Positions 6,074-34,945 of a stretch of 40,010 nt of DNA are shown here, in pieces; position 1 is the first letter of the stretch, and every line of letters starts with the position of its first letter. Below the pieces are notes generated by a model. That model was not told the DNA's origin. It made no database searches and was given only the letters and a program-made list of their open reading frames with translations. The translations under genes and the position numbers were made by a program. The stretch is from a virus, in the IMG/VR virus record IMGVR_UViG_3300007963_000011, positions 1 to 40,010 of that record. One strand, 5' to 3'.

Positions 6074-7177
6074 ATGGCAAGTCTAGGTGATATACTAAGA
6101 GGTGCGCTCGGCGGCGAGTATAGCATGGGCAGAGACCTTGACGACGAGGAGCGTAGAAGGATCGAGGAGTTACGCGCTCAAGGGATACATGTCCCGCAGG
6201 AGCGTCAGTCGTCTCCGTTTCGCTATGGTGCAGGTACGGTACGCAAGAAAAACTTAGCGGATATACGTGCAGCGATGCAGCCTGACCAACAGCGCAGGAT
6301 GAACGAGCTGATGTTTCAGCGTGGCAGAGGTGCAAGAGATGCGCTCGCTATGGAGCAACAGCAGCGTAGGCAGCAGGCTGATGACGCGATACGACAGCGT
6401 GCAATAGCAGACCAAGGTCGTATGCGTGAGTTGGGGGGTAAGCCGACGATGTCACCACAACAACGGTTTGCTGCAGATCAAGCTAAGGGAACAGGCCCGT
6501 CTATGATGTACAGGTCTGCAGAAGATTACGCAGCAGATGCTCCTCCTCAGATAACCCCGCAGGAACAGGACGAATTGGCTGTGTTACAGAGAGAAAACCT
6601 ACCGTCGCGTATACAGGAACAAACTCTCAGCACAGCGCAGCAGGCTGGCAGAACACAAGAGTTAGCTCACCAAGTTGGTTTGATAAACCTAGAAGATAAA
6701 CGGGCAGCAAGTCAGTTATCCGCTCAGGTAAGGGAAGCATTGCCCGCAGATTACGCACGGCTCTTGGCAAACAAACAGGTTGTAGGCACAGAGCTTGCAG
6801 TCTTGCTTGACGCGCAGAGGTTGAAGACACAGCAAAAGTTTGGTGACCAACTCGCAGCTAAGTCGGCTAATAAGCAGCTAGATGCGTTGGATTTAGAATT
6901 AAAGAGTATACAGGATACAATGGCTTGGCTTACCCAGACGCAGCAAGGTCAGGTCTACAGTATGCAAGGTGGCAAGCTTGGTACTGACTATCTGAACGTA
7001 CTTAAACAGCTTGAGCTTGCACTTAGTAATGCGCGAGACAGGGAAAATAGAAGTCGTATAGCTGACCGAGGTTTAACAGGAAATCCGTCAGGTTCGACAC
7101 TAGGAGATGCTTTAGGTGGTAATCTTTCTGTACCGTTTAGCCTTAATCCTGGTCGTACATCTGGAACTATAGACTAA
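6074..7177 (+). CDS. Putative internal virion protein B, Gln-rich helical (367 aa)
   Basis: A highly helical, Gln/Ala/Arg/Asp-rich protein. The first about 70 residues are basic and acidic by turns (DDEERRRIEELRAQGI), and residues 85-125 form a run of QQRRQQADDAIRQRA type, a probable coiled coil. A second helical part near residues 180-300 includes ELKSIQDTMAWLTQTQQGQ. The C-terminus turns Gly/Ser/Asn rich. It starts 5 bases after the preceding stop and ends one base before the giant gene. In T7-like order this corresponds to gp15, although it is much shorter than that protein (747 residues). The function is inferred from position. Confidence 0.6.
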   Translation: MASLGDILRGALGGEYSMGRDLDDEERRRIEELRAQGIHVPQERQSSPFRYGAGTVRKKNLADIRAAMQPDQQRRMNELMFQRGRGARDALAMEQQQRRQQADDAIRQRAIADQGRMRELGGKPTMSPQQRFAADQAKGTGPSMMYRSAEDYAADAPPQITPQEQDELAVLQRENLPSRIQEQTLSTAQQAGRTQELAHQVGLINLEDKRAASQLSAQVREALPADYARLLANKQVVGTELAVLLDAQRLKTQQKFGDQLAAKSANKQLDALDLELKSIQDTMAWLTQTQQGQVYSMQGGKLGTDYLNVLKQLELALSNARDRENRSRIADRGLTGNPSGSTLGDALGGNLSVPFSLNPGRTSGTID

Positions 7178-13702: not shown

Positions 13703-14161
13703 TTGCCCAAGCAAGCCCAAGGCAAAAAGTTCGGTAGCGTTGGCCAGCGAGGGGAATTCCTAGTAGCTGAAAAACTGTTATCTTACGGGTGGATTGTAGC
13801 GCAGCCTTTAAGTAGTGCGTCTGTTTTCGATCTGCTGGTCGGTAAGGGTGGTAAGATTTGGCAACGGGTACAGGTTAAGTCTACGCTTGAGCAGCATTCG
13901 TACAAATACAACCGGCCACACTATCAGTTTATCCTGTCTCACGGTGCTTCAGTAAAGAAGCGTTACACCGCAACACAAATTGACTTCTTTATATGCTGCG
14001 CTTTGGACGTTGGTAAGTTTTGGATTCTACCCTTCAAGGAGGCTACCGCTACCACACTCAAAATCTACAACGGGGAAGATAGCAAGTTCCACCGATACGA
14101 AGACGCGTGGGAACTGCTAGGATGCCCTAGGCAGATAGACCAGCTTTCCTCCCTTGCGTGA
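13703..14161 (+). CDS. PD-(D/E)XK nuclease-like protein (152 aa)
   Basis: Starts with TTG 5 bases after the giant gene. The N-terminal part has a nuclease arrangement: RGEFLVAEKLLSYGW (helix with Glu), then SSASVFDLLVGKGGK (Asp), then RVQVKST, the Gln-x-Lys after a beta strand. This Glu...Asp...QxK order is typical of small PD-(D/E)XK endonucleases related to Holliday-junction resolvases and intron endonucleases. The second half (IDFFICCALDVGKFWILPF) fits the later strand of that fold. It may act in junction resolution or genome processing. Its last 45 bases overlap the convergent leftward gene. A weak ribosome binding site and non-ATG start make the exact beginning uncertain. Confidence 0.65.
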   Translation: MPKQAQGKKFGSVGQRGEFLVAEKLLSYGWIVAQPLSSASVFDLLVGKGGKIWQRVQVKSTLEQHSYKYNRPHYQFILSHGASVKKRYTATQIDFFICCALDVGKFWILPFKEATATTLKIYNGEDSKFHRYEDAWELLGCPRQIDQLSSLA

Positions 14162-15355
14162 GCCGGTAATCTGATCGGTCTGCATTAAGAATTCCAAGGC
14201 TGCCTCTAGCTCATCCTTCTTCAGATCGCTATGCCAATCTAACCACAGACGTTTGTGAGTTACACCTTCTGGTTTGCTGTTTACATATTCGCCAAGCTTC
14301 TTGGTAAATTCGTGGATTACATTCCTGCCTGTTAGGTCGTAGCTCAGGTGCATGAAGACCTCTGTCTCGGCGAGGAACTTCTCTGCGTGTTTGAAGGACT
14401 CTAGGCTAATTTCTGTAGACTCTGCGGAGCTACCCATCTGCACAGTCAGAGCGAGTTTCTGTAGATGGATGTTCTTCCGTGCGTAGTACAAGTCCAACTT
14501 AGGGCTGGAGTTTATCCTGCTGTTTATGTACATACCCTTTTCGTAGCGTTCCTTGTGGTAGGCGGCACACTCTGCCGACATGGGTACAGGCCCACACAGG
14601 TTGGCAAGTTTCTTTACGTGCTGAACCACCGCCGCCCTTGCTTTAACATGCTTGTCCTCGAAGCCGGTGAACTGCCGAAAGAACCTAGGCTGCTCTTGGT
14701 AGATCACAACAAACCGCGAGGTAAAACCTTGCGAGATAAGATTCTCGTTGAAGCACTCGCGGATAAACGATGGCGTAGTGCCAGCTATCAGCGACACGCA
14801 CACGTTTTGTACATTGTCTTTGCCCTGCTTCTTGGTGTAGTAGCGGTAGTTGCGTGCGTCGTAGAGTTGGTTAAGCATGTTGACGGTGTCCTCGGTGCGT
14901 TTCTTTAGGAAGACGCCGAGTTCCTCTACCAGCATCATACAGGACGCATGGATGTATTCCTTGCCGTCATCTAAGGTAAAGACCTTCGTGCAGTCACCAG
15001 CTAGGAACTCACTAAGGCACTCTGCCGTGATGCTGTCTGCACTATACTCGAATAAGGGTGTGGTCTTTTTCTTGTCCTTTGACATTACCTGCAGTTCGGT
15101 ATCCTGTATGATATCGGAGATCATAGAGATTAGACGGCTCTTGCCACAGGCGGGAGGGCCAACCAACAGCATGAACAGGTTAGGGTAGATTGCATTGATA
15201 CCCTGTGATGTCCATACCCTACGCTGGAGGCAACTACTTATGAGAAAGTAAAATCCCCAGTCTATGAAAAGGTCTGGGGATTCGAGGTCTTCTAGGTACA
15301 GCCTCCAACTGTCACGTACCGTCACGCTACACCTCCCCATGTGTCGCCGATACAA
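14117..15355 (-). CDS. DUF3987/D5-like P-loop ATPase, probable replication helicase (412 aa)
   Basis: Clear P-loop at about residues 66-73 (GPPACGKSR), a Walker B candidate near 140-146 (MMLVEELG), a polar strand with Thr (SLIAGTTPSF, about 188-197) and an arginine-finger candidate in GFTSRFVVIY (210-219). The C-terminus looks like a winged helix (THKRLWLDWHSDLKKDELEA, about 360-380). This domain order resembles DUF3987 and D5-type helicase-primase ATPases, which are common beside phage polymerases, so a role in replication fork unwinding is likely. No primase catalytic domain is visible. Its start overlaps the polymerase gene by 34 bases, and its 3' end overlaps a convergent gene by 45 bases. 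An ATG five codons downstream is an alternative start. Confidence 0.75.
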   Translation of the reverse strand: MYRRHMGRCSVTVRDSWRLYLEDLESPDLFIDWGFYFLISSCLQRRVWTSQGINAIYPNLFMLLVGPPACGKSRLISMISDIIQDTELQVMSKDKKKTTPLFEYSADSITAECLSEFLAGDCTKVFTLDDGKEYIHASCMMLVEELGVFLKKRTEDTVNMLNQLYDARNYRYYTKKQGKDNVQNVCVSLIAGTTPSFIRECFNENLISQGFTSRFVVIYQEQPRFFRQFTGFEDKHVKARAAVVQHVKKLANLCGPVPMSAECAAYHKERYEKGMYINSRINSSPKLDLYYARKNIHLQKLALTVQMGSSAESTEISLESFKHAEKFLAETEVFMHLSYDLTGRNVIHEFTKKLGEYVNSKPEGVTHKRLWLDWHSDLKKDELEAALEFLMQTDQITGSRKGGKLVYLPRAS

Positions 15356-17709
15356 GCCTCGCTCTTCATGGCGAAACGCTCACCACGTGGCGAAACTAGA
15401 TCACAGTTCATTATAGCCATAGTTTCCTTGGCAACGTAGTCCACGTGTTCTGGTGGACATTGCAGTAGGACGCTATCGTGGTTGTTCTGTACGATATCTA
15501 CGTCCATTGAGGACAGGGGGTCTTTTTGATTTTCTATTTTCTGTTGCATTTTAGTAAACGTGATGTTGGTTATTGTCCCAACGGTTGATTGCGGTACGAA
15601 AGCGTAGGCTTCCTTGTGCATGGATTCGTCTATGATAGAGGTAAAGACACGGGGGTAGCCGAAGAGATTGCGTAGCACACCGTCTCGGCGTAGAGTATCG
15701 ACAGTCTCCCTGTGCCAGCCTCGTATCTCTGGGAACAGGTCGTGGTAAGTGTTGAGGAATACCTTGGCCTCGGCCTGAGATATGGAGACCTTGCCCTCAG
15801 ACTTCTGTAGGAGATTCAGCCTAAACGTAGGGGGCTTCATGCCGTAGTTGCTGGCATGACAAACCATCTTGGCAATGAAGTAGTAGCGTTTCTCTGCGCT
15901 CCAGTTGTCGCTGGACTTTATTAACTTGTCGAGTTCGCCCCAGCCTCGCAGCGTAGCAACCTCGGCAATCGGTGCAGTACAGTAGTTATCGACCGAGCGG
16001 CCCAGTTCTGCAGACCACACTTCGGCAAACAAACGAAGGGCAACATACACATGACTTTTAATCCCATGTAGAAAGAGACTGCGAAAGTTACCCTTAGCAC
16101 ACAGGTAAGAAACGACAAGTGCCTCTGCACCTGACTGATCCACTTGGACAAAGACTTTGTTTTCATCTGGTAGGAATATCTTGCGTAAATCCTTGGGGAA
16201 GTTTTGCACGTTTGTACCCCAGCGGCCAAGCAATCTTTTAGAGGCTAGCCTAAACGTGGTAGTCCCGGCCAAGTTGTACCCCGTGGTAATCCTTTCCTTG
16301 GTTGTTCCACGTGGAACATACGGTGGGAACTTTAGCTGCCCCGACTGCTTGGCTACGCCACGGTACTTTAGGATGATGGTGAGTACAGGATTCGGGTGCT
16401 TCAGACGTAGCTGCAGCAGAGTCTTCTCATTGGTCATATCCTTGACCGGCTTCTTATACCCCATACCATCATATAGATAAGCCGAGACCTGCTTGGGGCT
16501 GTTAGGATTCAACGTATACCCCACAAGCAGCTTCAACATACGAGAGAGCTGGGCGCAGTAGCGCGTGTTGTAAACCACACGGTCGTCTAAGTCCTGCTTG
16601 TTGTAGTTGATACCCTGCAGCATGGCCGTTAGATACGGTGCGATGCTGTCGTTTACCTGTTGGATACTGTCCTCTGCGTAGAGTTGCTTCGCGTGGATGG
16701 TTAGCTTTGGTTTGAGTAGGGCTAGGCTTATAACATCCTTGGCGTTGTAGTGGTAGAGGGAGAGGATTTGCTGCTGGTTGCGCGGTTCAAAGACACCGTC
16801 GTTCTTGTGGTACTCGCGGTCAGCGTAGAGGGAGATGCAATGGCCTAGGGATTTCTCGACTTCGGGGCATAGGCGATGGTGTGCGAGCATCGTATCGTAG
16901 ACTTTGCGCGGGGCAGGGATACCATACTTGTAGGCCATGACGAAGAGGTCGAACAAGGCATTGTGGATTACCACCGTATTGTCGCGGAATGCCACCGCCA
17001 AGGCTCTTAAAATTCTTGCTGTACCCAGACCACCATAGTAGTACGCACGGCGCGGGATTTCGTACATCGGAACACAGATAGCTTCCGCCTCTGACCAACC
17101 GTACCCAAAGCACGTAAGCGTCAAGTCACTAGCGGTCTCTACGTCAAAGAATAAATCCTTGCCCTTCGTTTCTGTAAGGTCTTTAACTACTGCTTCAATA
17201 TCTGGATAGATTACCTCACCCAACTCTTCTATCTTTGGCTTTACCAGAAGATACCGACACGCTTTCTTGATATCTTTCCGTAACCAAAACCGCCAGTTCT
17301 GTCGCTTGGTCTTACCGTGCGTAGCCTTATCATCGTCGCTGCCGCCGGTGTACTCTGTGTTAGGGTTGAAGTAGTTCTTGCGATCGAAGGCATCCTGCGG
17401 CATATACGACGCGAGATGTATAACGTCACCCTCCATCCAAGGGTTGCCTCTCTGCTCATCGAGACCTACGCCCGGTTTGTACTGATGCAAAGACTTACGC
17501 CCAAGCAACAACACAACCCTAGTGTTCGGTAGGTAGCCTGCGTTTAACGTAGACAACGTACGCAGGTCACAAGATTCACGGCTAACCCCAAGTGTAGAAT
17601 CGAAAAACGCCCCCGCGTAGCCGCTCATAAGAACGTGGCGGTCAAACCGCGAGGGCGTGTCGATTACGACAGTTAGGCCTGAGTATTTCTCAGCAGGCTT
17701 ATGACGCAT
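15322..17709 (-). CDS. polA: Family A DNA polymerase with 3'-5' exonuclease and degenerate glycosylase-like N-terminus
   Basis: 795 residues. Residues 1-150 resemble a uracil-DNA glycosylase-like fold (VVLLLGRKSLHQYKPG, then IHLASYMPQDAFD), with the catalytic-type motifs not preserved. The exonuclease has Exo I FFDVETAS (Asp189, Glu191), Exo II NALFD (Asn250, Asp254) and Exo III YNAKD (Tyr321, Asp325). The polymerase has motif A VDQSGAEA (Asp524), motif B with Lys614, Tyr622 and Gly623, and motif C HDS (His744, Asp745). The residue matching E. coli Phe762 is His618. It replicates the phage genome. It overlaps the genes on both sides (11 bases upstream, 34 downstream), so it lies in one operon with the ATPase gene. 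Confidence 0.95.
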   Translation of the reverse strand: MRHKPAEKYSGLTVVIDTPSRFDRHVLMSGYAGAFFDSTLGVSRESCDLRTLSTLNAGYLPNTRVVLLLGRKSLHQYKPGVGLDEQRGNPWMEGDVIHLASYMPQDAFDRKNYFNPNTEYTGGSDDDKATHGKTKRQNWRFWLRKDIKKACRYLLVKPKIEELGEVIYPDIEAVVKDLTETKGKDLFFDVETASDLTLTCFGYGWSEAEAICVPMYEIPRRAYYYGGLGTARILRALAVAFRDNTVVIHNALFDLFVMAYKYGIPAPRKVYDTMLAHHRLCPEVEKSLGHCISLYADREYHKNDGVFEPRNQQQILSLYHYNAKDVISLALLKPKLTIHAKQLYAEDSIQQVNDSIAPYLTAMLQGINYNKQDLDDRVVYNTRYCAQLSRMLKLLVGYTLNPNSPKQVSAYLYDGMGYKKPVKDMTNEKTLLQLRLKHPNPVLTIILKYRGVAKQSGQLKFPPYVPRGTTKERITTGYNLAGTTTFRLASKRLLGRWGTNVQNFPKDLRKIFLPDENKVFVQVDQSGAEALVVSYLCAKGNFRSLFLHGIKSHVYVALRLFAEVWSAELGRSVDNYCTAPIAEVATLRGWGELDKLIKSSDNWSAEKRYYFIAKMVCHASNYGMKPPTFRLNLLQKSEGKVSISQAEAKVFLNTYHDLFPEIRGWHRETVDTLRRDGVLRNLFGYPRVFTSIIDESMHKEAYAFVPQSTVGTITNITFTKMQQKIENQKDPLSSMDVDIVQNNHDSVLLQCPPEHVDYVAKETMAIMNCDLVSPRGERFAMKSEACIGDTWGGVA

Positions 17710-18237: not shown

Positions 18238-18720
18238 CTAGAACCCCGACAGATCGTGGTCTTCAGCAGCTTCTAACCTGCGTTCCACGTTGTAGCGATA
18301 GTTCGCCAACGGCTGCCCAGTTATGGGGTCGATCATAGGATCACCTGTGATCTCGTCCATCCTAGACTCGGTCTTCGTGTAGAGTACAGCCTTAAAAGCT
18401 TTACCCTTTAGACCTGCCGCTATGTCATCGTACTCTTCCAGCTCAAAATCTTCTGGCAGATCAAAGATTTTGTGATACTCCTTCAGACTCCGTGATGGAA
18501 TCAGAGGGTAGTCCCTAACTTGAACGCCACCGACTTCAACGAAACCCCTAGGCCCGTTAACTTCTGTGGGTTCCACAACCTCAGCTACAACAGCAACCAT
18601 GTCGTTGCCCTTGCTGCTAACCTTGCGCTCGGCTTCGACAATGCGAAGCGTGTATGTACCGTTCGGGAGGTAAGGCCTACCCGAACTTTCCGTAATGTCC
18701 TTTAGACTTATTCTAGCCAT
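18238..18720 (-). CDS. Probable single-stranded DNA-binding protein, DUF669-like (160 aa)
   Basis: The N-terminal half has an OB-fold-like arrangement: YLPNGTYTLRIVEAERKVSS, then KGNDMVAVVAEVVEP, then beta strands with GGVQVRDYPL. The C-terminus becomes acidic and ends AAEDHDLSGF, an acidic tip with a terminal aromatic residue as in many SSB proteins and T7 gp2.5, where it recruits replication partners. Phage proteins of this sort protect single strands during replication and recombination. It lies upstream of the polymerase in the leftward operon, and a Sak4-like annealing ATPase is encoded nearby. No ribosome binding site is seen before the ATG. Confidence 0.7.
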   Translation of the reverse strand: MARISLKDITESSGRPYLPNGTYTLRIVEAERKVSSKGNDMVAVVAEVVEPTEVNGPRGFVEVGGVQVRDYPLIPSRSLKEYHKIFDLPEDFELEEYDDIAAGLKGKAFKAVLYTKTESRMDEITGDPMIDPITGQPLANYRYNVERRLEAAEDHDLSGF

Positions 18721-19409: not shown

Positions 19410-19769
19410 CTAGATAACAAGCTCATCTTTAATGTATGGTGTTGTTGTGTAACCCTCTAAAATCTCTGCAGATTTCATTGGTATGTACCACTGTGATCCT
19501 GCTCCGTGATAGCCGTCTGAGCCACCACTTAGTATTGATTCAAGACTTAGTTTAAGGTATAACTTTTTTACTAGGTCTGAAAAAACAAACAACTTAACAG
19601 CATTGTTTTTAGCATAGTCGAGTAGCCTCTTGTCAAAACTTAGTGATTCGCTCTGCCATAAAACTGACGAAGCAAACGGAAACTCTCTTACAATGGCGTC
19701 TCCAATATGCTTTCCTACGAATGTTTTTCTGCCGTTAACCGTGGTGTAGATTGCTTTACTCTTAGGCAT
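19410..19769 (-). CDS. Hypothetical protein (119 aa)
   Basis: The N-terminus reads MPKSKAIYTTVNGRKTFVGK, then a helical and aromatic middle (FASSVLWQSESLSFDKRLLDYA) and a Gly/Ser-rich segment GGSDGYHGAGSQWYIP near residues 82-97. I recognise no family. The start overlaps the end of the Sak4-like ATPase gene by 8 bases, which points to co-translation, so a role in recombination or replication is possible but unproven. The local sequence appears A/T-richer than the neighbouring genes. Confidence 0.65.
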   Translation of the reverse strand: MPKSKAIYTTVNGRKTFVGKHIGDAIVREFPFASSVLWQSESLSFDKRLLDYAKNNAVKLFVFSDLVKKLYLKLSLESILSGGSDGYHGAGSQWYIPMKSAEILEGYTTTPYIKDELVI

Positions 19770-20418
19770 AGTATTCCTCCACTTTCTTTAGCACCTCCAC
19801 AATATCATTCGGTATCAACTGTTCGTCAAACATACCCATTGGGGTCTTGGCCGAGGTAACCCCGTCCGTGTTAGTCTGAAAAAAGTATTCCATCTCTTCG
19901 GTCTTCTCGTTCTTGCGTACCTCGGTGAACAACACCATGAGGAACTCCTTCTCTACTGCACCTTCGTGAACTTTACCTTGGACTTTGACCCTACGGTGGG
20001 AAGACTCCCCACCTGTGATCTGCGGTATCTTCACGATGTCGTCTACTGCCGTGAAGATAATCGTAGCCTTGTCGTTCTTGATAGAGTCCAGCATGTTGCG
20101 GATAGTTCTATTGTAGAACGACCAGATATCGTAGCCCTTGAACGAGTTCGTGGCAAGCGTATTTACCTGCTCCACGTATTTAGTGAAGGATTCCACCACG
20201 ATAGTCTCGCAGTTGTCTTCCTTTAAGGTTTTCTCAAGCAGCCTAGGGAAGGCGTTGGCATTCTCTACAGGAACGATGTTGAACCTGCTGGCGTTACGAA
20301 AGGGGAATCCCTTTCGTTCCAAGTCTAGGATGTAGGTAGTCTCTGGGTCTAGGTTACGCAGCGACGTACTCTTGCCGCTGCCACTATGACCCACGATTGC
20401 TATTAGTGGTTTATACAT
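19762..20418 (-). CDS. Sak4-like RecA-fold ATPase, single-strand annealing (218 aa)
   Basis: The Walker A motif is at residues 10-18 (GHSGSGKST). It is followed by YILDLERKGFPF, typical of the phage AAA_24/Sak4 family, and a Walker B candidate ETIVVES at 71-77 with a polar strand IIFTAVDDI. Sak4 proteins are short RecA-like ATPases that assist annealing of complementary single strands with the phage SSB. The length of about 218 fits the family. The neighbours support a recombination set: SSB-like protein, PD-(D/E)XK nuclease with an iron-sulphur cluster, and Nmad1-type protein. It overlaps genes on both sides by 8 bases. Confidence 0.8.
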   Translation of the reverse strand: MYKPLIAIVGHSGSGKSTSLRNLDPETTYILDLERKGFPFRNASRFNIVPVENANAFPRLLEKTLKEDNCETIVVESFTKYVEQVNTLATNSFKGYDIWSFYNRTIRNMLDSIKNDKATIIFTAVDDIVKIPQITGGESSHRRVKVQGKVHEGAVEKEFLMVLFTEVRKNEKTEEMEYFFQTNTDGVTSAKTPMGMFDEQLIPNDIVEVLKKVEEYYA

Positions 20419-21064: not shown

Positions 21065-21982
21065 TTATAGTTGGAATTGTAGTGGATCGTAGACCTTGCG
21101 GGTGTAGTCCATGTTGACTATGGACTCCCTGTCACCGGCTGAGTTTGCCGTACACAAGGGAGTAAACCCACATAGGCCAAACTTAGTCTCGCAACAGGCG
21201 AAGTTGCTAAGGAAGATATCCTCACCGTCCTGCTCTGTGTACGTGTTGAAGTATATGTCCAGCTTGCTGCGTATCCTACCCACAAGGTCGTCAATGTAAG
21301 CTTGGAACTTGGCCAGCCTGTCGTTGCTGAACTCGAATATCTCGCTGCGTTCAAACTTGTTCTTGTTAGTTCGCCCAAGGAACAGACCGTTAATCATACA
21401 GCCTACGTTGTCTTCGGGGAAAAGCTTATGCCAGATGAGGTTGTAGAACATAAGCTGCGGGGATATTTTGTAGGATGCGAAGTAGGAGGCAATGCCGTAG
21501 GCTGCCGTGGACTTGTGGTCTACGATGACAGGCCTGCCGAAGTAGGTTCCGACGAAGTCTATCGTGCCACAGAAGAGTACGTCCAGCTCCGGTGTCTGTA
21601 GGTAGGGGTAGGCGAAGCGCATCTCAAGTAGAGGGTCAGGGTCTTTGCGTACCTGTAGCCCTGTGTCCACCTTGTAGTATTGTTGGAGTAGGTTGACCAA
21701 GTGGGCTAGGTCTCGGAAGTCTTTGTCCGGTACAAGCACATCGGCGTAGTGATCTATGGCTAGGTTGGTAGCCTTCTCCTCGTCACCATCAGAGTAGTAC
21801 GACTCCAAGGCCTTGTGTACTGCCGTGCCATACTCCATCTTATGGTTAGAGTTCCGCTTGCGTAGCCCTCGACACAACATATACCACAGCCTACGTTCGC
21901 ACGCTGATTCCTTTATGAGTGACGCATCTATCTTTAATATAAGTTTACCCTCTTTTGTTTTTTCTAGGTTAAGTAATTCCAT
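21065..21982 (-). CDS. Cas4/RecB-like PD-(D/E)XK nuclease with Fe-S cysteines (305 aa)
   Basis: Motifs in order: Cys28 in SACERRLWYML; GTAVHKALE (His56), the RecB-type first motif; CGTIDFVG (Asp142); IVDHKST (Asp155, Lys157), the catalytic core; QLMFYN (Gln176), motif QxxxY; and a C-terminal group CCETKFGLCGFTPLC (Cys263/264, 271, 277) that with Cys28 could bind a 4Fe-4S cluster as in Cas4 and AddB. The product would be a single-strand exonuclease working with the Sak4-like and SSB-like proteins. No CRISPR array is present, so it is not a CRISPR adaptation gene. Its start overlaps the next upstream gene by 14 bases. Confidence 0.85.
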   Translation of the reverse strand: MELLNLEKTKEGKLILKIDASLIKESACERRLWYMLCRGLRKRNSNHKMEYGTAVHKALESYYSDGDEEKATNLAIDHYADVLVPDKDFRDLAHLVNLLQQYYKVDTGLQVRKDPDPLLEMRFAYPYLQTPELDVLFCGTIDFVGTYFGRPVIVDHKSTAAYGIASYFASYKISPQLMFYNLIWHKLFPEDNVGCMINGLFLGRTNKNKFERSEIFEFSNDRLAKFQAYIDDLVGRIRSKLDIYFNTYTEQDGEDIFLSNFACCETKFGLCGFTPLCTANSAGDRESIVNMDYTRKVYDPLQFQL

Positions 21983-22267: not shown

Positions 22268-22849
22268 TTATCTTACCACGTTTAACGCACCATTGTCCGT
22301 GTCGAACTCAAAGTCTACAAGTTTTTGCTGCTCTTCCAACCACTTGGTATCCTTCGTATCAACCCTGACGTTCTCCCTGTTGAATGTATCCATCTCCTCG
22401 GCTGTCTGTAGCCAAGCGAGTAGCTCTCCCTTCCATACGGACGAGTCCGCAAACTCATACTGTAGTTCTCTAGCTTTAATTTGGTTGCGTGTGGTGTCCT
22501 TGAAGTAAATCAAGACACCAGCGTTTGTCTTGCGTAGCGCAACCTGAGTGCGTAGTTCCCCATAGATTGGCCCGTATTCCGCAGAGTTATCGACAAGAAA
22601 CTTGAAGCCGTCGGTTAACTTTACATAGAGAGTGTTGACTGTGTAGCCTGTCTCCTCCGCTGTGATTACGATATCCTTCTGACCATTAAGTAACTTATCC
22701 AAGATAGGCTTTATCTTGTAAGCACTGGTCGGACTGTACGTCGAGCGAGAAACTGCAGACTTGGTTCGCATTTTACGCAAGAGTGCGGAGTGATCCTCTA
22801 GGGTTGCGGCTTTTGCGCGTATCTTATCTGTATTGTTTATATCATCCAT
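22268..22849 (-). CDS. Hypothetical protein (193 aa)
   Basis: I prefer the ATG at 22849 (MDDINNTDKIRAKAATLEDH) to the in-frame ATG at 22888, because the longer start would lie inside the candidate structured RNA at 22861-22936. The protein has a basic N-terminal region (LLRKMRTKSAVSRSTYSPTS), a beta-rich centre (DIVITAEETGYTVNTLYVKL) and a C-terminal helical part rich in Trp and acidic residues. The centre could be a small DNA-binding or cystatin-like fold, but I do not recognise the family. It is followed 7 bases later by a membrane micro-gene. Confidence 0.7.
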   Translation of the reverse strand: MDDINNTDKIRAKAATLEDHSALLRKMRTKSAVSRSTYSPTSAYKIKPILDKLLNGQKDIVITAEETGYTVNTLYVKLTDGFKFLVDNSAEYGPIYGELRTQVALRKTNAGVLIYFKDTTRNQIKARELQYEFADSSVWKGELLAWLQTAEEMDTFNRENVRVDTKDTKWLEEQQKLVDFEFDTDNGALNVVR

Positions 22850-22860
22850 GTGTATAAAAT

Positions 22861-22936
22861 AGGGTAGCGTAGTGTTTCTCACGGCCATGATTAAGCCGGT
22901 TCGTACATCTCGTACGACACCATGCTACGCTACCCT
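22861..22936 (-). ncRNA. Candidate three-way-junction RNA, copy A
   Basis: On the leftward strand a 12-bp perfect stem (AGGGTAGCGTAG with CTACGCTACCCT) encloses two hairpins: 22901-22917 (UCGUAC, loop GAGAU, GUACGA) and 22882-22898 (CGGC with GCCG). Joining segments are CAUGGUG before the first hairpin and GAAACA directly against the closing strand. It starts 7 bases after a stop codon and ends 11 bases before the next ATG. The plan, loop and joining motifs match the copy at 18146-18229, while the stem sequences differ, as expected of a selected RNA structure. Confidence 0.5.
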
Positions 22937-22943
22937 TGTTTAC

Positions 22944-23369
22944 TTAGGCCTCCTTCTCGGCGGCCATCAGTTCCTCCATGCGAGCAAGGACAGCTTTGCC
23001 CTCGTCGAATTCGCCAGCAGCAAAGTATGCCTTGGCCTTCTTGAACAGTTTGCCGGGAGTCTCCCCGCCACCTGCTTCTGGAGTCCACTTGTCTGCGTCC
23101 TCCTTGGAGTAGATCACCAAGTCAGGGTACTTCTCCGTCAACTCGGCCCGTAGCTCATCAGTCGTCTTGCCGTTAGGCTTCAACGAGTTCTTTACCGTAG
23201 ACCGAATTCGTGCGCTAACCTGCTGGTTCAGCAAGCCTAGCGTTTTTGCCTCACCGTACCTAGAAACTACGTCTGCTGTAGTCTTGAACTCTGGTACATG
23301 GAACTTGAAGTCTTTCCAATCTCCCGACTGGAAATGCTCCACCTCGTATGTGGTATCTATCGTTTGCAT
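22944..23369 (-). CDS. Hypothetical protein, first gene after the sigma-54-like promoter (141 aa)
   Basis: Reads MQTIDTTYEVEHFQSGDWKD, then FKFHVPEF, a helical segment (VVSRYGEAKTLGLLNQQVSA) with a basic run RIRSTVKNSLKPNGK, then an acidic helical C-terminus (FDEGKAVLARMEELMAAEKEA). A GAGAGATAAA stretch lies just before the ATG, giving a fair ribosome binding site. I recognise no family. Its place directly behind the hairpin-rich leader and the candidate -24/-12 promoter suggests it is strongly or conditionally expressed, perhaps a nucleic-acid-binding regulator (inference). Confidence 0.7.
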   Translation of the reverse strand: MQTIDTTYEVEHFQSGDWKDFKFHVPEFKTTADVVSRYGEAKTLGLLNQQVSARIRSTVKNSLKPNGKTTDELRAELTEKYPDLVIYSKEDADKWTPEAGGGETPGKLFKKAKAYFAAGEFDEGKAVLARMEELMAAEKEA

Positions 23370-23457
23370 TTTATCTCTCTGTTACTTTCGCGCAGTTAAC
23401 TGTTAGCGCAAAAAATTTAATTGTTGTTAAGGGAAAATCCTTTAACATGTAGTATTA
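23370..23457 (-). promoter_or_regulatory. Leader between the -24/-12 site and the 22944-23369 gene
   Basis: A start about 12 bases after the -12 element would lie near 23447, giving a leader of some 78 bases. It holds a hairpin TTAAAGGA...TCCCTTAA (about 23426-23444) and a GCGC-flanked AGTTAACTGTTA segment near 23391-23410 whose AACTGTTA is complementary to TAACAGTT near 23482, just upstream of the promoter. The final bases GAGAGATAAA precede the ATG. Confidence 0.35.
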
Positions 23458-23474
23458 AGCAGGAAGCGTGCCAA
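23458..23474 (-). promoter_or_regulatory. Near-consensus sigma-54 (-24/-12) promoter
   Basis: On the leftward strand the sequence is TTGGCACGCTTCCTGCT. Against the sigma-54 consensus TTGGCACG-N4-TTGCT it differs in one base, and the GG and GC doublets have the required spacing. It lies in the gap between the sigma-54-activator-type AAA+ gene and the gene it would transcribe. The 9-base core should appear by chance less than once in a window of this size, and this copy is intergenic and correctly oriented. Function depends on a host sigma-54. Confidence 0.5.
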
Positions 23475-23603: not shown

Positions 23604-23630
23604 GAGTTGCACGACATGCACGAGTTGCAC
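23604..23630 (-). repeat. Three tandem 9-bp repeats (GTGCAACTC type)
   Basis: On the leftward strand the 27 bases read GTGCAACTC, GTGCATGTC, GTGCAACTC in direct tandem. The outer copies are identical and the middle differs at two places. The period of 9 bases is not a full helical turn. Together with the adjacent inverted repeat it may bind a regulator; iteron-like replication sites are another possibility. Confidence 0.5.
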
Positions 23631-23681
23631 AGTACACATGAATTCCGTTTTTACCTATCGCTGTGTTATGTGTACCGGTAG

Positions 23682-24455
23682 TTATCGGTCGCCCTCCCAA
23701 TGGAAGTCTAGGCTATGTGGGCCTAGGACTTTATACTGGGTTGCCAATCGGAGTAGCTCTCGGACATTGCCCCTCAGTAGGGGAGGGCGTACCCATTGGC
23801 TTGCCTTAGCCCCGGCATGGAGTAAGGCGAGGAAGTCCTCGTACTCTGCGTTGGTCAGGATATTCTTGAGGATAAGGCGGGCATCTTCCATACGCTCCCT
23901 CAACGGCTTTAGCTTTAACCTAAACGTGGCTATCCTATGGTACAGGTCATCACGGAAGTCAGAACCCAAACAGTTTGTAGCAAAGACAAACCTGCCTGTG
24001 AAGTCCGTGTCCTCGTTCTCCCCTATCCTACGAAATTTGCGGGTCTCTATCAGTCGCAACAGCATCACCTGTATCGCAGGGGTTATGTCTCCGATTTCGT
24101 CCAGAAAAAGCGTACCTTTGGAGGCAGCGACCAGCAGACCCATACGACTGCTGGTTGCCCCGCTGTAGCTTCCCTTTACATGGCCGAAGAGTTCGGCCTG
24201 TACCAAGGCGTCAGGCATAGCCGATAGATTCAAGGCTATAAACCTACCCGTGCGCCTACCGTGTAGCCTTTCCGCCACAAGTTCTTTACCCGTACCTGAC
24301 TCGCCCGTGATAAGGACAGACTCAGGCCTATGGGATAGCTTGTCCGCTGCCTCTAGCACACGCAGACAGTCGGCGTCTTGGGTTATAAACTTCCCCGTGT
24401 TGTAGGCTATGTTCTGTTTCTTGAGAACCTTGAGCTGGGCTTCTAGGCTAGGCAT
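23682..24455 (-). CDS. Stand-alone sigma-54-activator-type AAA+ ATPase (257 aa)
   Basis: Carries a full bacterial enhancer-binding AAA+ domain: Walker A GESGTGKE (51-58), ELFGHVKG, the sigma-54-contact loop GSYSGA at 95-100 (variant of GAFTGA), Walker B GTLFLDEIGD (114-123), the arginine-finger segment FRDDLYHRI (167-175), LKPLRERMED, and the sensor-II-type GNVRELLR (229-236). There is no N-terminal receiver or sensing domain and no C-terminal Fis-type helix-turn-helix, so it is only the motor. Family members use ATP to open sigma-54 promoters. A perfect AAGGAGG lies just before the ATG. It overlaps the upstream gene by 8 bases. Its downstream gap holds a -24/-12 promoter. A replication role cannot be excluded. 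Confidence 0.85.
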   Translation of the reverse strand: MPSLEAQLKVLKKQNIAYNTGKFITQDADCLRVLEAADKLSHRPESVLITGESGTGKELVAERLHGRRTGRFIALNLSAMPDALVQAELFGHVKGSYSGATSSRMGLLVAASKGTLFLDEIGDITPAIQVMLLRLIETRKFRRIGENEDTDFTGRFVFATNCLGSDFRDDLYHRIATFRLKLKPLRERMEDARLILKNILTNAEYEDFLALLHAGAKASQWVRPPLLRGNVRELLRLATQYKVLGPHSLDFHWEGDR

Positions 24456-25335
24456 TCTTGACCTCCTTAAACTTCTTGGTGACCAAAGTCTTGAAGGCTT
24501 TGTCTATCCCGTCTGTATCCGTAAGGCCAGAGACATCGTACCAGAATACCAGTTCGGCTTGGTCTTTCTGTATGGTAACGTCGGAGTCCTTGATCTCGCC
24601 CATGCTTATCTGTGTACCGTAGCCCCCGCTCTGGTGATAGCCGTACTGTATACGTATCTTCTCAGACTCCAGCTCTTGGAGGTGGAAGAGAAACCTACGC
24701 ATCATAAACGTAGCGCACATGGCGATACACAGTCTATCGGCGTCGATCATCTCTTGGAAGTCCTTGAGCTTGACGTAGGTTATGTGAACACCACCGCTAC
24801 CGCTACAGGGGAAGGTAGCTATGACCTCGCAACTGTAGCCCATGGTTTCTAGGTGGTCTACCGCCTTGTATATCAAGGCTCCCCTATGGAAGTAACACTC
24901 CTCCGGTATGCCGTTATGATTCCAACAGTTGACGTAGATGGTAAGCAGGCGTTTGCCTTGGGTTATAACGGTATCGCTTTCCTCTTCCTCTAGGAAGTGT
25001 TCGGGGCTAGCGTCAGTTGTCGCTGCCTCTATGTTTACCACACCACCTGCTATAGTGGGTACGTAGTCGGTAAGGTACTCTTCGAGTGGGGCTATGGCCT
25101 CGACGATAGCTTCGTCTACCTTTGTTTTCTCTAGCCTATCCAGACCCCAACCTCCTGCGTCAAGCAGGAAGACAGCCTCCGTCCATGACTGCGTACCGTA
25201 CCAGTCGTCGTTGTCTGCATCCTTGTGGGATGCGTAGCTGTTCAGGATTTTCTTATGTTCGCTACGTACTGGGTCTTTGTCTAGGGCAGAGCGGAACTCA
25301 TCCCATGAGTATATGGTTTTGGTTAAGTCTTTCAT
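24448..25335 (-). CDS. DUF7192-like protein, possible partner of the MoxR-type ATPase (295 aa)
   Basis: The N-terminus has SWTEAVFLLDAGGWGLDRLE. The core from about residue 135 reads RLLTIYVNCWNHNGIPEECY, then FHRGALIYKAVDHLETMGYS and CEVIATFPCSGSGG, and ends in a helix IAMCATFMMRRFLFHLQELE and GYHQSGGYGTQ. It recalls phage proteins listed as DUF7192, and the alternating strand-helix order suggests a degenerate von Willebrand A-like fold without a clear MIDAS (DxSxS). Genes for MoxR ATPases are usually next to vWA partners, and this one starts 3 bases after the MoxR-like stop. I propose the two act together on a protein or DNA complex; the target is unknown. Confidence 0.6.
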   Translation of the reverse strand: MKDLTKTIYSWDEFRSALDKDPVRSEHKKILNSYASHKDADNDDWYGTQSWTEAVFLLDAGGWGLDRLEKTKVDEAIVEAIAPLEEYLTDYVPTIAGGVVNIEAATTDASPEHFLEEEESDTVITQGKRLLTIYVNCWNHNGIPEECYFHRGALIYKAVDHLETMGYSCEVIATFPCSGSGGVHITYVKLKDFQEMIDADRLCIAMCATFMMRRFLFHLQELESEKIRIQYGYHQSGGYGTQISMGEIKDSDVTIQKDQAELVFWYDVSGLTDTDGIDKAFKTLVTKKFKEVKNA

Positions 25336-25338
25336 GGT

Positions 25339-26415
25339 TCAGAAGGGTACATCGTTGTCGTCTAGGATTTCCTTAACGTCTTTGGGTACGTCAGGTTTCG
25401 ATTCTTTCTTGGACTTGTACTCATCAGAGGCCAAGTCTTTGATTTCGTGGCTGGGCTTCCGTATGTCCACACGCTTCTCGGTGTAGATTTCCAGTAGCCT
25501 ACGTTTCTGCTCGCCCTTGACCGAGCGAAACACCGTAGCGTCCAAGGCTGCGAACTCATCCCACCCTGCCTTAGCCATTAGGTTTACACATTGGCGTAGG
25601 TTGCGGGTCGCAAAGATTACCCGTATCTTATGAGTCTGGGCGTAGTCTCGCATCGCTTGGAACCTATCGATGAACTTATCGAACTGACTCTGGGTTATCT
25701 TCGGCTCGTCTACGGATTTGTATAGGCCAAGTGTCCATAGCTTCTCTGCGTTAGCATCGTAAGGCCACTCGACGCAGACGAACTCGTTGAGGAGGGCTAC
25801 GTCTAGGGCGTTGCGTCCTATGTATTCCCTGTCTGGCCCTAGTCCCCACGTGTTTGCAGTACACATGAGGTGGCACTTGGGGTTGACCTCCTGCATACCG
25901 TACGGCATGTAGATATGACCGGAGAGTATGCCCTTGATAATCATTAGCACGTTCGAGTTGCCGTTGTCTATCTCATCGATGACAGCTAGGCCACCCTCTT
26001 GGATTATCTTAGTGAACACACCGGGGACGTAGTTACCCGTGGCATTGTTGAAGCCTATCAGGTCATGGGTCGCTGTCTGTTTGTTGACTTGCCGTATAGC
26101 GTAGTGCTTGCAGCCTAGGGCTTTCTTGACTGCGTGGGTTACGCGAGTTTTACCGCTGCCCGTAGGCCCGATAATCATAGCGGGTTCTCCCGAACCCATC
26201 ACCTCTATCAAAGGTTTCAGTTGGTAGTGCTGACCCTTGACGCTGGTGTAGTTGACTACGTTATTGCTAACGTGCTGCTTAATCTCCAAGACTACGTTCT
26301 GTTGTGTAGTCTCGGCGATTCGTGTGTCTAGCTCGCTGAACTTGGTAGCGAACTCTTCCTTGACGGAGGATAGAATCTCCTCGGTCATACCTTTTATCCA
26401 ATTATTTTCTGTCAT
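25339..26415 (-). CDS. MoxR/CobS-like AAA+ ATPase (358 aa)
   Basis: The N-terminal about 50 residues form a coiled coil. It is followed by Walker A at residues 83-90 (GPTGSGKT), ATHDLIGFNNATGNYVPGVF (substrate-loop region), Walker B GGLAVIDEID (141-150), the sensor strand CHLMCTANTWG and a second-half segment ALLNEFVCVEWPYD. The acidic C-terminus ends KEILDDNDVPF. The order matches the MoxR/CobS branch of AAA+ proteins, which act as chaperone-like remodelers and are common in phages without a known target. AAGGAG before the ATG supports the start. It overlaps the upstream gene by 14 bases and lies directly before its presumed partner gene. Confidence 0.85.
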   Translation of the reverse strand: MTENNWIKGMTEEILSSVKEEFATKFSELDTRIAETTQQNVVLEIKQHVSNNVVNYTSVKGQHYQLKPLIEVMGSGEPAMIIGPTGSGKTRVTHAVKKALGCKHYAIRQVNKQTATHDLIGFNNATGNYVPGVFTKIIQEGGLAVIDEIDNGNSNVLMIIKGILSGHIYMPYGMQEVNPKCHLMCTANTWGLGPDREYIGRNALDVALLNEFVCVEWPYDANAEKLWTLGLYKSVDEPKITQSQFDKFIDRFQAMRDYAQTHKIRVIFATRNLRQCVNLMAKAGWDEFAALDATVFRSVKGEQKRRLLEIYTEKRVDIRKPSHEIKDLASDEYKSKKESKPDVPKDVKEILDDNDVPF

Positions 26416-31229: not shown

Positions 31230-31409
31230 TTTTTTGAAGTCTATGGCAGTAGACGCCACGCGAACGGGGGCCACGCATCGCGCATGGCTTGTCTCCGCCG
31301 CCGTTGTCAAATCTACCATAGGCGTCTAGCTTACTCCCGATTTGCGGGATGCGTCAACATGTATTTTCAATTCCTAAGTTTGTAATTTGAGGGGTAACTG
31401 TTGGTTATT

Positions 31410-31431
31410 GTTGACTAATAAATTAGTCAAC
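31410..31431. promoter_or_regulatory. 22-bp palindrome, left copy
   Basis: Arms GTTGACTAAT and ATTAGTCAAC with a 2-base centre. Its half site TTGACT is also like a -35 hexamer. An almost identical 22-bp palindrome lies 139 bp to the right (31549-31570), on the other side of an AT-rich tract. This is a probable binding-site pair for a dimeric regulator or replication initiator in the divergent intergenic region. Confidence 0.7.
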
Positions 31432-31469
31432 GGGAAAAAGCGCGGGAGAGGGGAAGAGGCTCGTACGCG

Positions 31470-31548: not shown

Positions 31549-31570
31549 GTTGACTAACTTATTAGTCAAC
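31549..31570. promoter_or_regulatory. 22-bp palindrome, right copy
   Basis: Arms GTTGACTAA and TTAGTCAAC around CTTA, matching the left copy at 20 of 22 bases. It lies directly after a pyrimidine-rich run (CCTCTTTTCCTTTTTTG). As one of a pair, it may bind the same protein as the left copy and allow DNA looping. Confidence 0.7.
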
Positions 31571-31820
31571 TATAATTAACAGTCAGCGTTCCGGCCTATC
31601 GTAGGTATACTTTACGGCGTAGACTATCATTGATACCGTGGGTAGTGGTTACAGATATACGTAGAGTACGTAATCCAGAGGGGAGGCCCAGAAGAAGATC
31701 GCTTACAGAACTATGACCCTCTCTGGCAAAATGACAAAAAATACAACCTAGGCTAACAGTTAAAAAATACCTTTACCAGTAGGCGGGTTTGGCATCAAAT
31801 GTGCTTTAGTCGGTGTGGTT
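31571..31820. promoter_or_regulatory. Upstream region of the rightward late unit
   Basis: No gene is supported. Visible: a TACGTA-gag-TACGTA palindrome at 31658-31672, and a 9-bp stem with one G-U (CCAGAGGGG at 31675-31683 with CCTCTCTGG at 31718-31726) enclosing 34 bases. It probably contains the promoter and leader for the rightward genes that begin near 31919; I could not single out -10 and -35 boxes. Confidence 0.35.
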
Positions 31821-31934
31821 ATGGATAATACCAAAGTTAGGTTTGAGGGGTTCTCTAAGAGAGCCGAGGAGATTTGTCGGGGTACGTCCTTGATGAGGTA
31901 CTACTTTAGGAGGCAGCAATGGGAAAAAAGCTAG
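31821..31934 (+). CDS. Possible small basic leader protein (37 aa)
   Basis: Reads MDNTKVRFEGFSKRAEEICR, then GTSLMRYYFRRQQWEKS; basic with several aromatics. It overlaps the start of the large proline-rich gene by 16 bases, and the strong AGGAGG for that gene lies inside it, so the two could be coupled. The frame has no good ribosome binding site. Treat as a weak candidate. Confidence 0.3.
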   Translation: MDNTKVRFEGFSKRAEEICRGTSLMRYYFRRQQWEKS

Positions 31935-34900
31935 TACGGCAGTTTAAGCCGCATAAGGCTCCGGCAGGGGTTAGGGGCTACCGGCCTCAAGCGATTGCAG
32001 AACATCCCCCAGCAGCCATAGTGGACTACGGAGTACCCTCCATAGACCACGGGCTGCCGCAGAGGCCGCCTACACCCCCTGTAGCACCTACACCCCCTGT
32101 AGTCGATTTAAGAGGGCTACCCGAAATTCCCATGCTTGTCCCGTATCCCCCAACAACGGCCCAGATTCCCAGAACTATGGGTACTCCAGCACTACCCCCT
32201 GACTGGTATCCAGAAACACCCAACCGAATCTGGACTCCCCAACCTCAGCCAACAACAAGCCCAAGGCTACGTCGAAACACGGGCGAGGGAGACCTCCCCA
32301 TAAACATACCCTCTGTCAACCTACCCACCACAACTACAACCCCACAAAGACCCTATCCACCTTATACACAACCAAACGTGGGCGTTGATACAACAGCCGA
32401 AAGCTACAACCTCCCCCCACAGCAACAGACAATCTACGAAAGACCCACCACAATAGACTACGGCCCAATAACAACCCCCATAGCTCGCCCCATACAAGAA
32501 GACGTAGGCTACATTGAACCCCAGCAATCTTACCCTATTACACCCGGCCCCCAAATAACCGCTACTGAACAAGCCTTCTACGAACCCCAACCCGTCGAAA
32601 GCGCATACGCCTACCCTATCCAAGTAGACTACCCCCAACCCCAACCTCTACCCCCCGACTTAAACCCCGACTTAAACCCCGACGAGATAACAAGCCTAAT
32701 AGACACCCTCATACCTGAACAGCAGGAAACCAAAACTATCAACTTCCCGCAAGAAGGCCCACAATGGGTAGAAGACCCCCAAGCTTTGGCAGCACAAGAA
32801 GCCATAGATCAAGCAGGCTTCGACCAAACTGACCCCTCTATCTATCAGTCACAACCCACAATAGACGAAATCCCCGAACTAACCTACAACCAACCACAAC
32901 AACAAGACCCCTTCGTCATAGACTATGGCCCAACCTACGGAGACCCTGTCGTACAAGAAACCACTCAAGCACCCTACTTACCACCAGTAGAACAGTCCAT
33001 ACAGGAGCTACCCGTAACTCAACCTCCAGAAGTGGGTATGCCGGAAATCCCGGTAGAAAAAATCGTAGATGAAACAGATGATACAGTAGCGGGTATGTAC
33101 TACCAAACCCCAGATGTGGAGAATTTATCACCCGGCGGAGGTGTACAGGCTGGGGGCAACCTTTCTTGGGAAGACCTTCAATACAAAAACGCCCAAGAAA
33201 GTACAGGAATAAACGAAAAGTTCGCTATTCCCGGTGGCCCAGTCGAAAGAGACCCCGAAGGTGCAGCAGCTATCGCAGAAGCTTTAGAAGATGACACAGC
33301 TACCGACGCCACTATCCCAGCTAAAACAATCACACCAGAAGGCGTAGTCGTAGACGACTCTGGCAAAACTTACACCGTAGACACAGAAGCAGGCGTAGAC
33401 ATCGAACAGCTTCCAGAAACCCCGTTTGCTGGTGAAGTTGCAGAAGGCCCGATGGTTGACCCTACGGAAGCTACAGACCCAAAACCCTTTACACCGGAAA
33501 TCGCTGATCCGCCTGCGCCAACAGAAGGTGTAGACATAACGGCGCAGGTTGACCCGGCGTTAACTACCGCCAGCACCGGAGGCCGTAAATGGTTACACAC
33601 AGGCCCATCAGACTTTGCAGAAACACTCCATCAGTTCAAAATAAACAGAGGCTCGTCTGGGCCACCTATCGTAACCGATACCCCTGCTGTATCTGGCCCT
33701 GTAGTCAACAGAGAGACCGGTGAAATAACAAGGGAACCCCTCACATGGCATCAGTTTAATCCAGCAGGTGGTTCGGTAAGCCCTTACACCGAGGGTATAA
33801 ACACAGGTACAGAAACAGGCGCGAAAGGCCCGCCAGATGTAACGGGTGTATCAGCTACTTCCGGTACTGGAAGAGGTGGAGAGGGTAGAACTCCGTTTCA
33901 GACCTTCCTTGAAAACCAAGATAACGCAGGTGAACTAATACCCGGTGGCTTGAACCTTGATATGGCCTCATTAAAAGGTCAGGCTGGTATAAATCAACTG
34001 CGGTCTGAAATGACCGCAAAAGACTTTGAAGGTATAGACTCCTTTGAAGGCCTTGGAAACTTCTTTAACCTAAAACCAGCTTTCCAAGGATTTGGAGAAA
34101 GTATAGCAGGCGCAATTCAAGAGTTAACCGGCATGGAAGCTGGAGACCTTAAAGGGCCGGGGCTATGGGATACTCTTAATACTCCAATACCTGCGTTCTC
34201 CACAGGTGAATTTGGCATCACACCACTTGACATCATTACTGTAATAGCTTCCGGTACGGTTGCAATCGGCCCTATCCTAGTGAAAAAGTTTATGGATTCG
34301 CTGATGCAACCCTTTGAAGCTGCGGTAACTGACGGCTTAAAGGGGGTCTTCAATACCGTGTTCAAACGCGGTGGCGAAAACTACAACAAACAGCCAGTAT
34401 CCCAAGAAAACATTAACGCCGCTGATCTTGAGGTTTTAGCTGAAGAACTCGGTATAGACAAGCCTTCCGGTATGATAGAGGCGGGTACTTACTACGGTGC
34501 AGATGGCACTGTAATAGCTAGAAACATGAAGCCATTAGATTTTGGTTTGAACACCGTAGACGGTGCAAACTCCTTCAAGGATGTGTTACATGCTGTAGGG
34601 GCTAAAGCTGACCCCGGTTACACCAGCATTAAATACAACACACAAACAGGTCAGGTAGATGTTGTCCACGCTGATGGTAGTGTTACTGAAAATGCCAGTC
34701 ATATTACTGTAGACAGCGAAGGGAACATGCAGCAAGGTACGGGCAACAGTAAGAAAACCAAGAAGGTTAACTGGGGTGTTAAAGTTATTGGTGTTAATGC
34801 TATAGATACTGTTGCTCCCCGCAAAGACAAAGGTAAGGGCAAAGGCAAAGGCAAAGGTGGGTCTATCTGGGACTGGATTAAAGATAAGTTACCCGGCAAG

Positions 34901-34945
34901 GACGATGATGAAGAGGAAGATACTAAACCCCCCGCAGGTCGCTAG
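31919..34945 (+). CDS. Large proline-rich, mostly disordered protein with one hydrophobic segment (1008 aa)
   Basis: A strong AGGAGG 7 bases upstream fixes the start. Residues about 30-390 are dominated by Pro, Gln, Thr and Tyr, with motifs such as TPPVAPTPPV and DLNPDLNPDE, plus recurring DYG/DYP elements. An acidic Glu/Asp/Thr/Gly-rich middle follows, then a more ordered part with a hydrophobic stretch DIITVIASGTVAIGPILVKK near residue 770. A basic GKGKGKGKGG segment and an acidic end follow. It is the first gene of the terminase-portal unit. Function is unknown; candidates are a fibre-like virion protein, a packaging factor or a membrane-linked protein. The codon choice is C-rich, unlike neighbouring genes. 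Confidence 0.75.
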   Translation: MGKKLVRQFKPHKAPAGVRGYRPQAIAEHPPAAIVDYGVPSIDHGLPQRPPTPPVAPTPPVVDLRGLPEIPMLVPYPPTTAQIPRTMGTPALPPDWYPETPNRIWTPQPQPTTSPRLRRNTGEGDLPINIPSVNLPTTTTTPQRPYPPYTQPNVGVDTTAESYNLPPQQQTIYERPTTIDYGPITTPIARPIQEDVGYIEPQQSYPITPGPQITATEQAFYEPQPVESAYAYPIQVDYPQPQPLPPDLNPDLNPDEITSLIDTLIPEQQETKTINFPQEGPQWVEDPQALAAQEAIDQAGFDQTDPSIYQSQPTIDEIPELTYNQPQQQDPFVIDYGPTYGDPVVQETTQAPYLPPVEQSIQELPVTQPPEVGMPEIPVEKIVDETDDTVAGMYYQTPDVENLSPGGGVQAGGNLSWEDLQYKNAQESTGINEKFAIPGGPVERDPEGAAAIAEALEDDTATDATIPAKTITPEGVVVDDSGKTYTVDTEAGVDIEQLPETPFAGEVAEGPMVDPTEATDPKPFTPEIADPPAPTEGVDITAQVDPALTTASTGGRKWLHTGPSDFAETLHQFKINRGSSGPPIVTDTPAVSGPVVNRETGEITREPLTWHQFNPAGGSVSPYTEGINTGTETGAKGPPDVTGVSATSGTGRGGEGRTPFQTFLENQDNAGELIPGGLNLDMASLKGQAGINQLRSEMTAKDFEGIDSFEGLGNFFNLKPAFQGFGESIAGAIQELTGMEAGDLKGPGLWDTLNTPIPAFSTGEFGITPLDIITVIASGTVAIGPILVKKFMDSLMQPFEAAVTDGLKGVFNTVFKRGGENYNKQPVSQENINAADLEVLAEELGIDKPSGMIEAGTYYGADGTVIARNMKPLDFGLNTVDGANSFKDVLHAVGAKADPGYTSIKYNTQTGQVDVVHADGSVTENASHITVDSEGNMQQGTGNSKKTKKVNWGVKVIGVNAIDTVAPRKDKGKGKGKGKGGSIWDWIKDKLPGKDDDEEEDTKPPAGR

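Follow-up and report, generated by a model that had tools for sequence, protein, structure and literature searches.

The window, by which we mean the whole analysed stretch of 40,010 nucleotides from the viral record IMGVR_UViG_3300007963_000011, contains a gene for a sigma-54 activator, a sigma-54 promoter site (P1) next to it, and a series of leftward genes. The features of this part are as follows.

23682-24455, minus strand: sigma-54 activator of 257 residues, a bare AAA+ domain with the loop GSYSGA and no helix-turn-helix (HTH) (PF00158, Sigma54_activat, E = 2.5e-46)
23458-23474, minus strand: P1, sigma-54 (-24/-12) promoter site TTGGCACGCTTCCTGCT, located in the sequence and found in the same place in relatives
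22944-23369, minus strand: first gene after P1, 141 residues, of unknown function, conserved in many but not all relatives
22268-22888, minus strand: second gene after P1, an open reading frame of 206 residues, of unknown function
21065-21982, minus strand: PD-(D/E)XK exonuclease (PF12705, 6e-12)
19762-20418, minus strand: Sak4-like recombination ATPase (phrog_2872, 3.7e-33)
18238-18720, minus strand: single-strand DNA-binding protein-like (phrog_378, 1.3e-4)
15322-17709, minus strand: family A DNA polymerase (PF00476, 1.7e-30)
14117-15355, minus strand: primase/helicase-like protein (phrog_14296, 2.5e-32)

The predicted structure of the 141-residue protein had no fold match at E<=0.001. The stretch just before the activator gene, 24448-26415, encodes a DUF7192 protein; it also encodes an AAA_5 ATPase, whose family carries the label porphyrin biosynthesis.

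The motifs that we required of an AAA+ activator are all present in the window protein: Walker A (GESGTGK), Walker B (FLDEIG), the arginine fingers (FRDDLYHR) and sensor II (GNVREL). Among 48 aligned sequences, 37, 43, 43 and 37 respectively match the strict forms of these patterns. Only about 23 residues precede the AAA+ domain and about 23 follow the sensor II motif. The structure model (pLDDT 86.6), in which the last helix spans residues 230-244, is matched best by the AAA+ domains of FleQ, NtrC4, NtrC1 and PspF. Neither the sequence nor the model contains a receiver, GAF or HTH domain; the usual N- and C-terminal domains are thus both absent. A C-terminal HTH is usual but not required, being absent from FleT (PMC7175178) and from CtcC and FlgR (PMC3162934), and the same is true of the N-terminal signal domain, which PspF and FleT lack (PMC3162934).

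The loop that contacts sigma-54 is GSFTGA in 22 of the 48 aligned sequences, GSYSGA in 10, GAFTGA in eight, GSYTGA in four, GAYTGA in two and NSFTGA in one, with one sequence lacking the pattern; [GN]x[FY][TS]GA accordingly describes 47 of the 48, and we judged the requirement for a GAFTGA-type loop to be met. GSYSGA occurs in the close relatives of the window, and GAYTGA, GSFTGA and GAFTGA occur in distant ones. The substitutions A2S, F3Y and T4S have each been found in validated activators (PMC3162934). By analogy, the GSYSGA loop is compatible with a working activator; the triple combination itself is without test. The assignment suggests a function for phrog_7998, a phage protein family currently listed as unknown. 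A tblastn search of the phages collection with the activator returned 64 records, many of them named or annotated as bacterial regulators. One human gut phage record (MT121960) has a PF00158-like open reading frame with GAFTGA and a Walker A that is degenerate; the 18,453-base stretch of it that was examined contains neither a strict nor a loose -24/-12 site.

P1 lies in the 312-base gap between the activator and the next leftward open reading frame (22944-23369). It differs from TGGCACN5TTGCW by one mismatch, and its GG-N10-GC spacing is exact. It meets the sequence criteria for a sigma-54 promoter: GG and GC at exact spacing, an intergenic position, and an orientation toward a gene start. 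The predicted +1 is near 23447, with the ATG of the 141-residue gene 78 nt further on. Because no transcript data exist, both the start site and its activation are only inferred. Counting mismatches gives no excess (21 sites with at most two mismatches in the window, 20.3 expected), and we rejected such counts as sole proof of P1. A weight matrix built from the sites of 24 distant relatives gave P1 the highest score in the window, 29.1, with the runner-up at 12.8; in 100 simulated first-order Markov windows the highest score was 22.1 and the mean maximum 12.7.

A sequence-only reading of the window had described P1 as a site one mismatch from consensus, exactly spaced, intergenic and facing the next leftward genes, all of which held. 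Its statement that 6784-6799 was the only other correctly spaced match failed, as there are ten in all with at most two mismatches, among them 34504 (plus strand, one mismatch, coding) and 31790 (plus strand, two mismatches, intergenic). The whole-genome matrix scan that it proposed was run on the window and ranked P1 first, and the outcome that it named as refuting, equally good matches at many coding places, did not arise, with only 10 of the 100 strict sites described below being coding. The transcript start near 23447 that it expected stays inferred. The comparison of relatives supports its suggestion of a single circuit made up of activator and promoter; the suggestion is incomplete in that the circuit also reaches a second site.

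Relatives were collected by two scans of viral contigs with the activator protein alone, which gave 80 loci; in the second scan the best 80 of 223 encoding stretches were taken and 143 were left out. Of 79 loci, 73 had TGGCAYN6TGCW on the same strand within 700 bp past the activator gene and none had it there on the opposite strand; the 80th locus (L187) ends within the activator gene. The distance from the activator stop codon ranged from 5 to 643 bp. All of the first 18 relatives (61-100% identical) contain TTGGCAYGNTTCCTGCT, and when the activators were clustered at 60% identity, 17 of 21 clusters had at least one member with P1. The six loci without a strict P1 (L185, L194, L206, L209, L212 and L221) each have strict sites elsewhere, those in L212 and L221 being scored as coding. 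These counts overstate independence, since the loci are related. After regions with flanks at least 85% identical were dropped, 35 of 74 P1 regions (window included) were left. In these, positions not imposed by the search were also conserved: the upstream T (86%), the G after TGGCAY (83%), a spacer T and C (86%) and the final T (35 of 35). The flanks had an average top-base frequency of 43-52%. The gene after P1 belongs to the 141-residue family in many lineages and is a different gene in some, so P1 has been kept while its target changed. Loci fetched with the 17-mer itself were left out of this evidence because they had been selected for the 17-mer. In many relatives the gap between the activator stop and P1 contains DNA that reads like tail-fibre repeats (TTGxxNVAIGYxAG) without a long open reading frame; such stretches lie at 23620-23681 in the window, 10750-10850 in L012 and 10790-10880 in L166.

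The 80 loci hold 100 distinct strict sites, of which 47 are P1 sites, 43 are other intergenic sites and 10 are coding. Control patterns in the same loci gave 12 matches when reversed (none intergenic) and 10 when scrambled (one intergenic). Shifting the spacer by a single base abolished the enrichment, leaving two sites for the shorter spacer and seven for the longer one (one intergenic in each case) against 100. The 18 whole records examined held between two and nine sites each, 81 altogether, against six control matches.

A second sigma-54 site, P2, which the sequence-only reading had missed, precedes the rightward genes.

31790-31805, plus strand: P2, a further sigma-54 site (TGGCATCAAATGTGCT) ahead of the virion genes read rightward, with a predicted start near 31816
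31821-31934, plus strand: mini-ORF of 37 codons (MDNTKVRFEGFSKRAEEIC...) at the start of the predicted P2 transcript
31919-34945, plus strand: first long rightward gene after P2, an open reading frame of 1008 residues
35370-36893, plus strand: terminase large subunit, downstream of P2 (phrog_2, 3.3e-27)
31708-31737, minus strand (leftward): candidate early sigma-70 promoter TTGTCA-N16-CATAGT, in an element conserved upstream of P2

P2 is intergenic, has two mismatches to TGGCAC-N5-TTGCW and lies before the gene starts at 31821 and 31919. Its matrix score of 12.0 is not significant alone against the simulated mean maximum of 12.7; the case for P2, which is an inference from sequence alone, rests on comparison among loci and not on its score. 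Only 31 loci include 8.4 kb or more of sequence ahead of the activator stop, and all 31 have a second site, on the opposite strand in 19 and upstream on the same strand in 12, with none having neither. The opposite-strand sites lie 6.0-8.4 kb upstream of the activator stop, and the reversed pattern had no matches in the opposite-strand stretch of the 31 loci. In L001, which is near-identical to the window, 113 bp separate P2 from the first long virion gene that follows it. Short open reading frames like the mini-ORF occupy the same place after P2 in distant relatives. The element GAACTATRACCCTCTCTG...ATGA, 54-75 bp upstream of P2, is conserved in 11 of the 80 loci when searched as a fixed pattern. 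TTGTCA-N16-CATAGT was found once in the window, with 1.4 occurrences expected in shuffles. The gap between early and late genes also holds the palindromes TTGACTAATAAATTAGTCAA and TTGACTAACTTATTAGTCAA, at 31405-31435 and 31550-31572, which are possible operator sites. GC skew is strong (-0.43) at 32001-33000, within the first rightward gene, where the coding sequence is proline-rich.

No sigma-54 gene or sigma-54 DNA-binding domain was found in any of 22 phage records, in a search whose control was detected in 4 of 14, and host sigma-54 is therefore presumably used. Scans of genome contigs for a host with the 141-residue gene and with the terminase gave no match. As these searches were empty and the host has not been identified, it is unverified that the host has sigma-54. 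The phages collection contained no near DNA match to the window and no relative of the 141-residue gene, and the window has no tRNAs. None of 21 records yielded a single-subunit RNA polymerase, a result that carries no information because the control in that search went undetected too.

The sites, the activator gene, its predicted fold, and their conservation and arrangement are shown, by computation only. The reading that we favor, and consider likely (probability about 0.86), is that this tailed phage uses an activator of its own to switch on the sigma-54 RNA polymerase of its host and so express later genes; transcription, its timing, ring formation and the use of host sigma-54 are inferred. 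In this view host sigma-70 polymerase would first transcribe the leftward early genes, including the activator gene, possibly from the candidate promoter at 31708-31737, an order inferred only from gene order. The activator would then form an AAA+ ring and, at the expense of ATP, open the sigma-54 polymerase poised at P1 and P2. Leftward transcription from P1 would express the exonuclease, Sak4, SSB-like, DNA polymerase and primase/helicase genes of recombination and replication, and rightward transcription from P2 would express the terminase and virion genes. As the protein has no signal or DNA-binding domain, it is probably active immediately on synthesis, working either from solution or by way of a separate partner that binds DNA. 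Related phages probably run their later genes through host sigma-54 as well, because the same layout of activator and promoters has been kept.

The alternative that survives best is a refinement that does not exclude the main reading. The enhancer-binding protein could be split, with a separate phage or host protein bringing the AAA+ ring to the promoters by binding a word that they have in common.

23397-23405, no strand: word TAACTGTTA within the leader of P1; TAACWGTTA has only two copies in the window, of which this is one
31754-31762, no strand: word TAACAGTTA, the second of these copies, 27 bp upstream of P2
23480-23490: near-copy GTTAACAGTTG (plus strand), just upstream of P1

In favor of a split protein, TAACWGTTA occurs twice in 40 kb, once per promoter. 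Lineage-specific words are likewise confined to P1 and P2 in L012 (two copies of TAACWGTTA), L015 (four copies), and L105 and L223 (three copies each of TTAGAAGTTA instead). In 5 of 16 genomes (the window, L015, L017, L166 and L105) the longest word common to P1 and P2 exceeded every sampled control, with up to 400 stretches drawn for each locus. Against it, the other 11 genomes failed to beat all controls, L181 and L189 showing nothing; L168 has a single TAACWGTTA copy away from both promoters; no HTH was found in the ten small early genes searched; and the word could equally well be a repressor site. In some lineages the common word makes a DNA-binding protein, whether partner or repressor, likely without showing it, and a separate partner for the activator is possible. 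On balance we consider the split reading clearly less likely than not. The copy in the P1 leader lies in a stem-loop at 23389-23412 (with the TAACAGTTA word), which in L015 has the stem GCAC/GTGC instead of GCGC/GCGC. We considered GCGC-TAACAGTTAACT-GCGC as an RNA element and dropped it, as the word recurs upstream of P2; that copy is outside the predicted transcript, so the word is more likely a DNA site than an RNA one.

A bolder reading is that a widespread phage group runs its whole post-early program on host sigma-54 through a bare AAA+ engine and a separate DNA-binding partner, whose target word (TAACWGTTA or TTAGAAGTTA) changes jointly at P1 and P2 between lineages. We consider this clearly less likely than not. 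If it were true, host sigma-54, which is non-essential in many bacteria, would be a hard requirement for growth of these phages.

It is also conceivable, and in our view unlikely, that the sites are sigma-54 promoters fired by host activators and that the phage AAA+ protein does something else, such as tampering with host sigma-54 genes. The lack of a DNA-binding domain in the phage activator would fit, as would the existence of other phage contigs with many sites and no detectable activator. However, in 73 of 79 loci the activator adjoins P1, and it does so also where another gene follows P1. There is very little to recommend action of the AAA+ protein on sigma-70 polymerase or as a repressor, like some GAFTGA-defective relatives; the loop in the close relatives of the window is indeed GSYSGA and not GAFTGA, but each change in it is known from validated sigma-54 activators (PMC3162934), distant relatives have GAFTGA, and the linked promoters are of the sigma-54 type. 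Conservation of the 17-mer because of some other role, for instance in packaging or as a replication origin, might be suggested by the conserved words and inverted repeats around it and is equally improbable, as only sigma-54-defined positions and spacing are kept, with the collapse on one-base spacer changes noted above, and the sites precede differing genes.

The favored reading, a phage-encoded activator of host sigma-54 polymerase, assembles parts of known kinds. FleT of Rhodobacter (Cereibacter) sphaeroides is the only known activator without both outer domains (PMC7175178) and, like the phage protein, is an AAA+ domain with neither a signal nor a DNA-binding domain, a likeness noted without direct sequence comparison. 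FleT is a cellular flagellar regulator, whereas the window activator belongs to a phage gene family adjoining phage promoters. The AAA+ domains of PspF, FleQ and NtrC1 have the same fold and motifs. These proteins carry DNA-binding domains, and FleQ and NtrC1 also have N-terminal domains; the phage protein, in contrast, ends about 23 residues past sensor II. CtcC of Chlamydia and FlgR of Helicobacter are also sigma-54 activators without a DNA-binding domain (PMC3162934) but are cellular and retain a signal-receiving part. A phage-borne sigma-54-type regulator is already in print, in phage phi1422 (PMC3391216); it was only annotated and was guessed to be co-opted, with no promoters reported in the relevant sections, and we made no sequence comparison with it.

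Polymerases, sigma factors and modifiers of sigma-70 are all known to be supplied by phages. In the late-gene takeovers by T7 RNA polymerase and T4 gp45/gp55, a phage product turns on later gene classes. The window phage, unlike these, would rely on a sigma factor already present in the host and contribute nothing but its ATPase activator. A literature search, mostly without subscription papers and so a limited negative, found no phage that had been shown to fire its promoters with host sigma-54 by means of a phage-encoded activator. What appears to be new, again as an inference from sequence alone, is that these parts would serve together as a circuit for phage takeover, in which the activator is a bare AAA+ protein conserved in a diverse group of phages. 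If this is correct, phage success would be tied to a factor that serves the host in nitrogen use and motility, and loss of rpoN is predicted to give resistance to this phage group. Loss of rpoN also changes metabolism (PMC8744999). The phage protein would also be a minimal natural sigma-54 activator with matched promoters, useful for studies of mechanism.

Contigs that were fetched with the 17-mer and lack the activator form a separate set. PF00158 exceeded the cut-off in only 1 of 26 such records. These contigs (91 loci) have 162 sigma-54-like sites against three matches to the reversed control, and those with many sites include L119, L078, L086, L122, L092, L152, L159, L089 and L090. Their sites often occur as divergent pairs about 25 bp apart or as tandem copies 26-28 bp apart.
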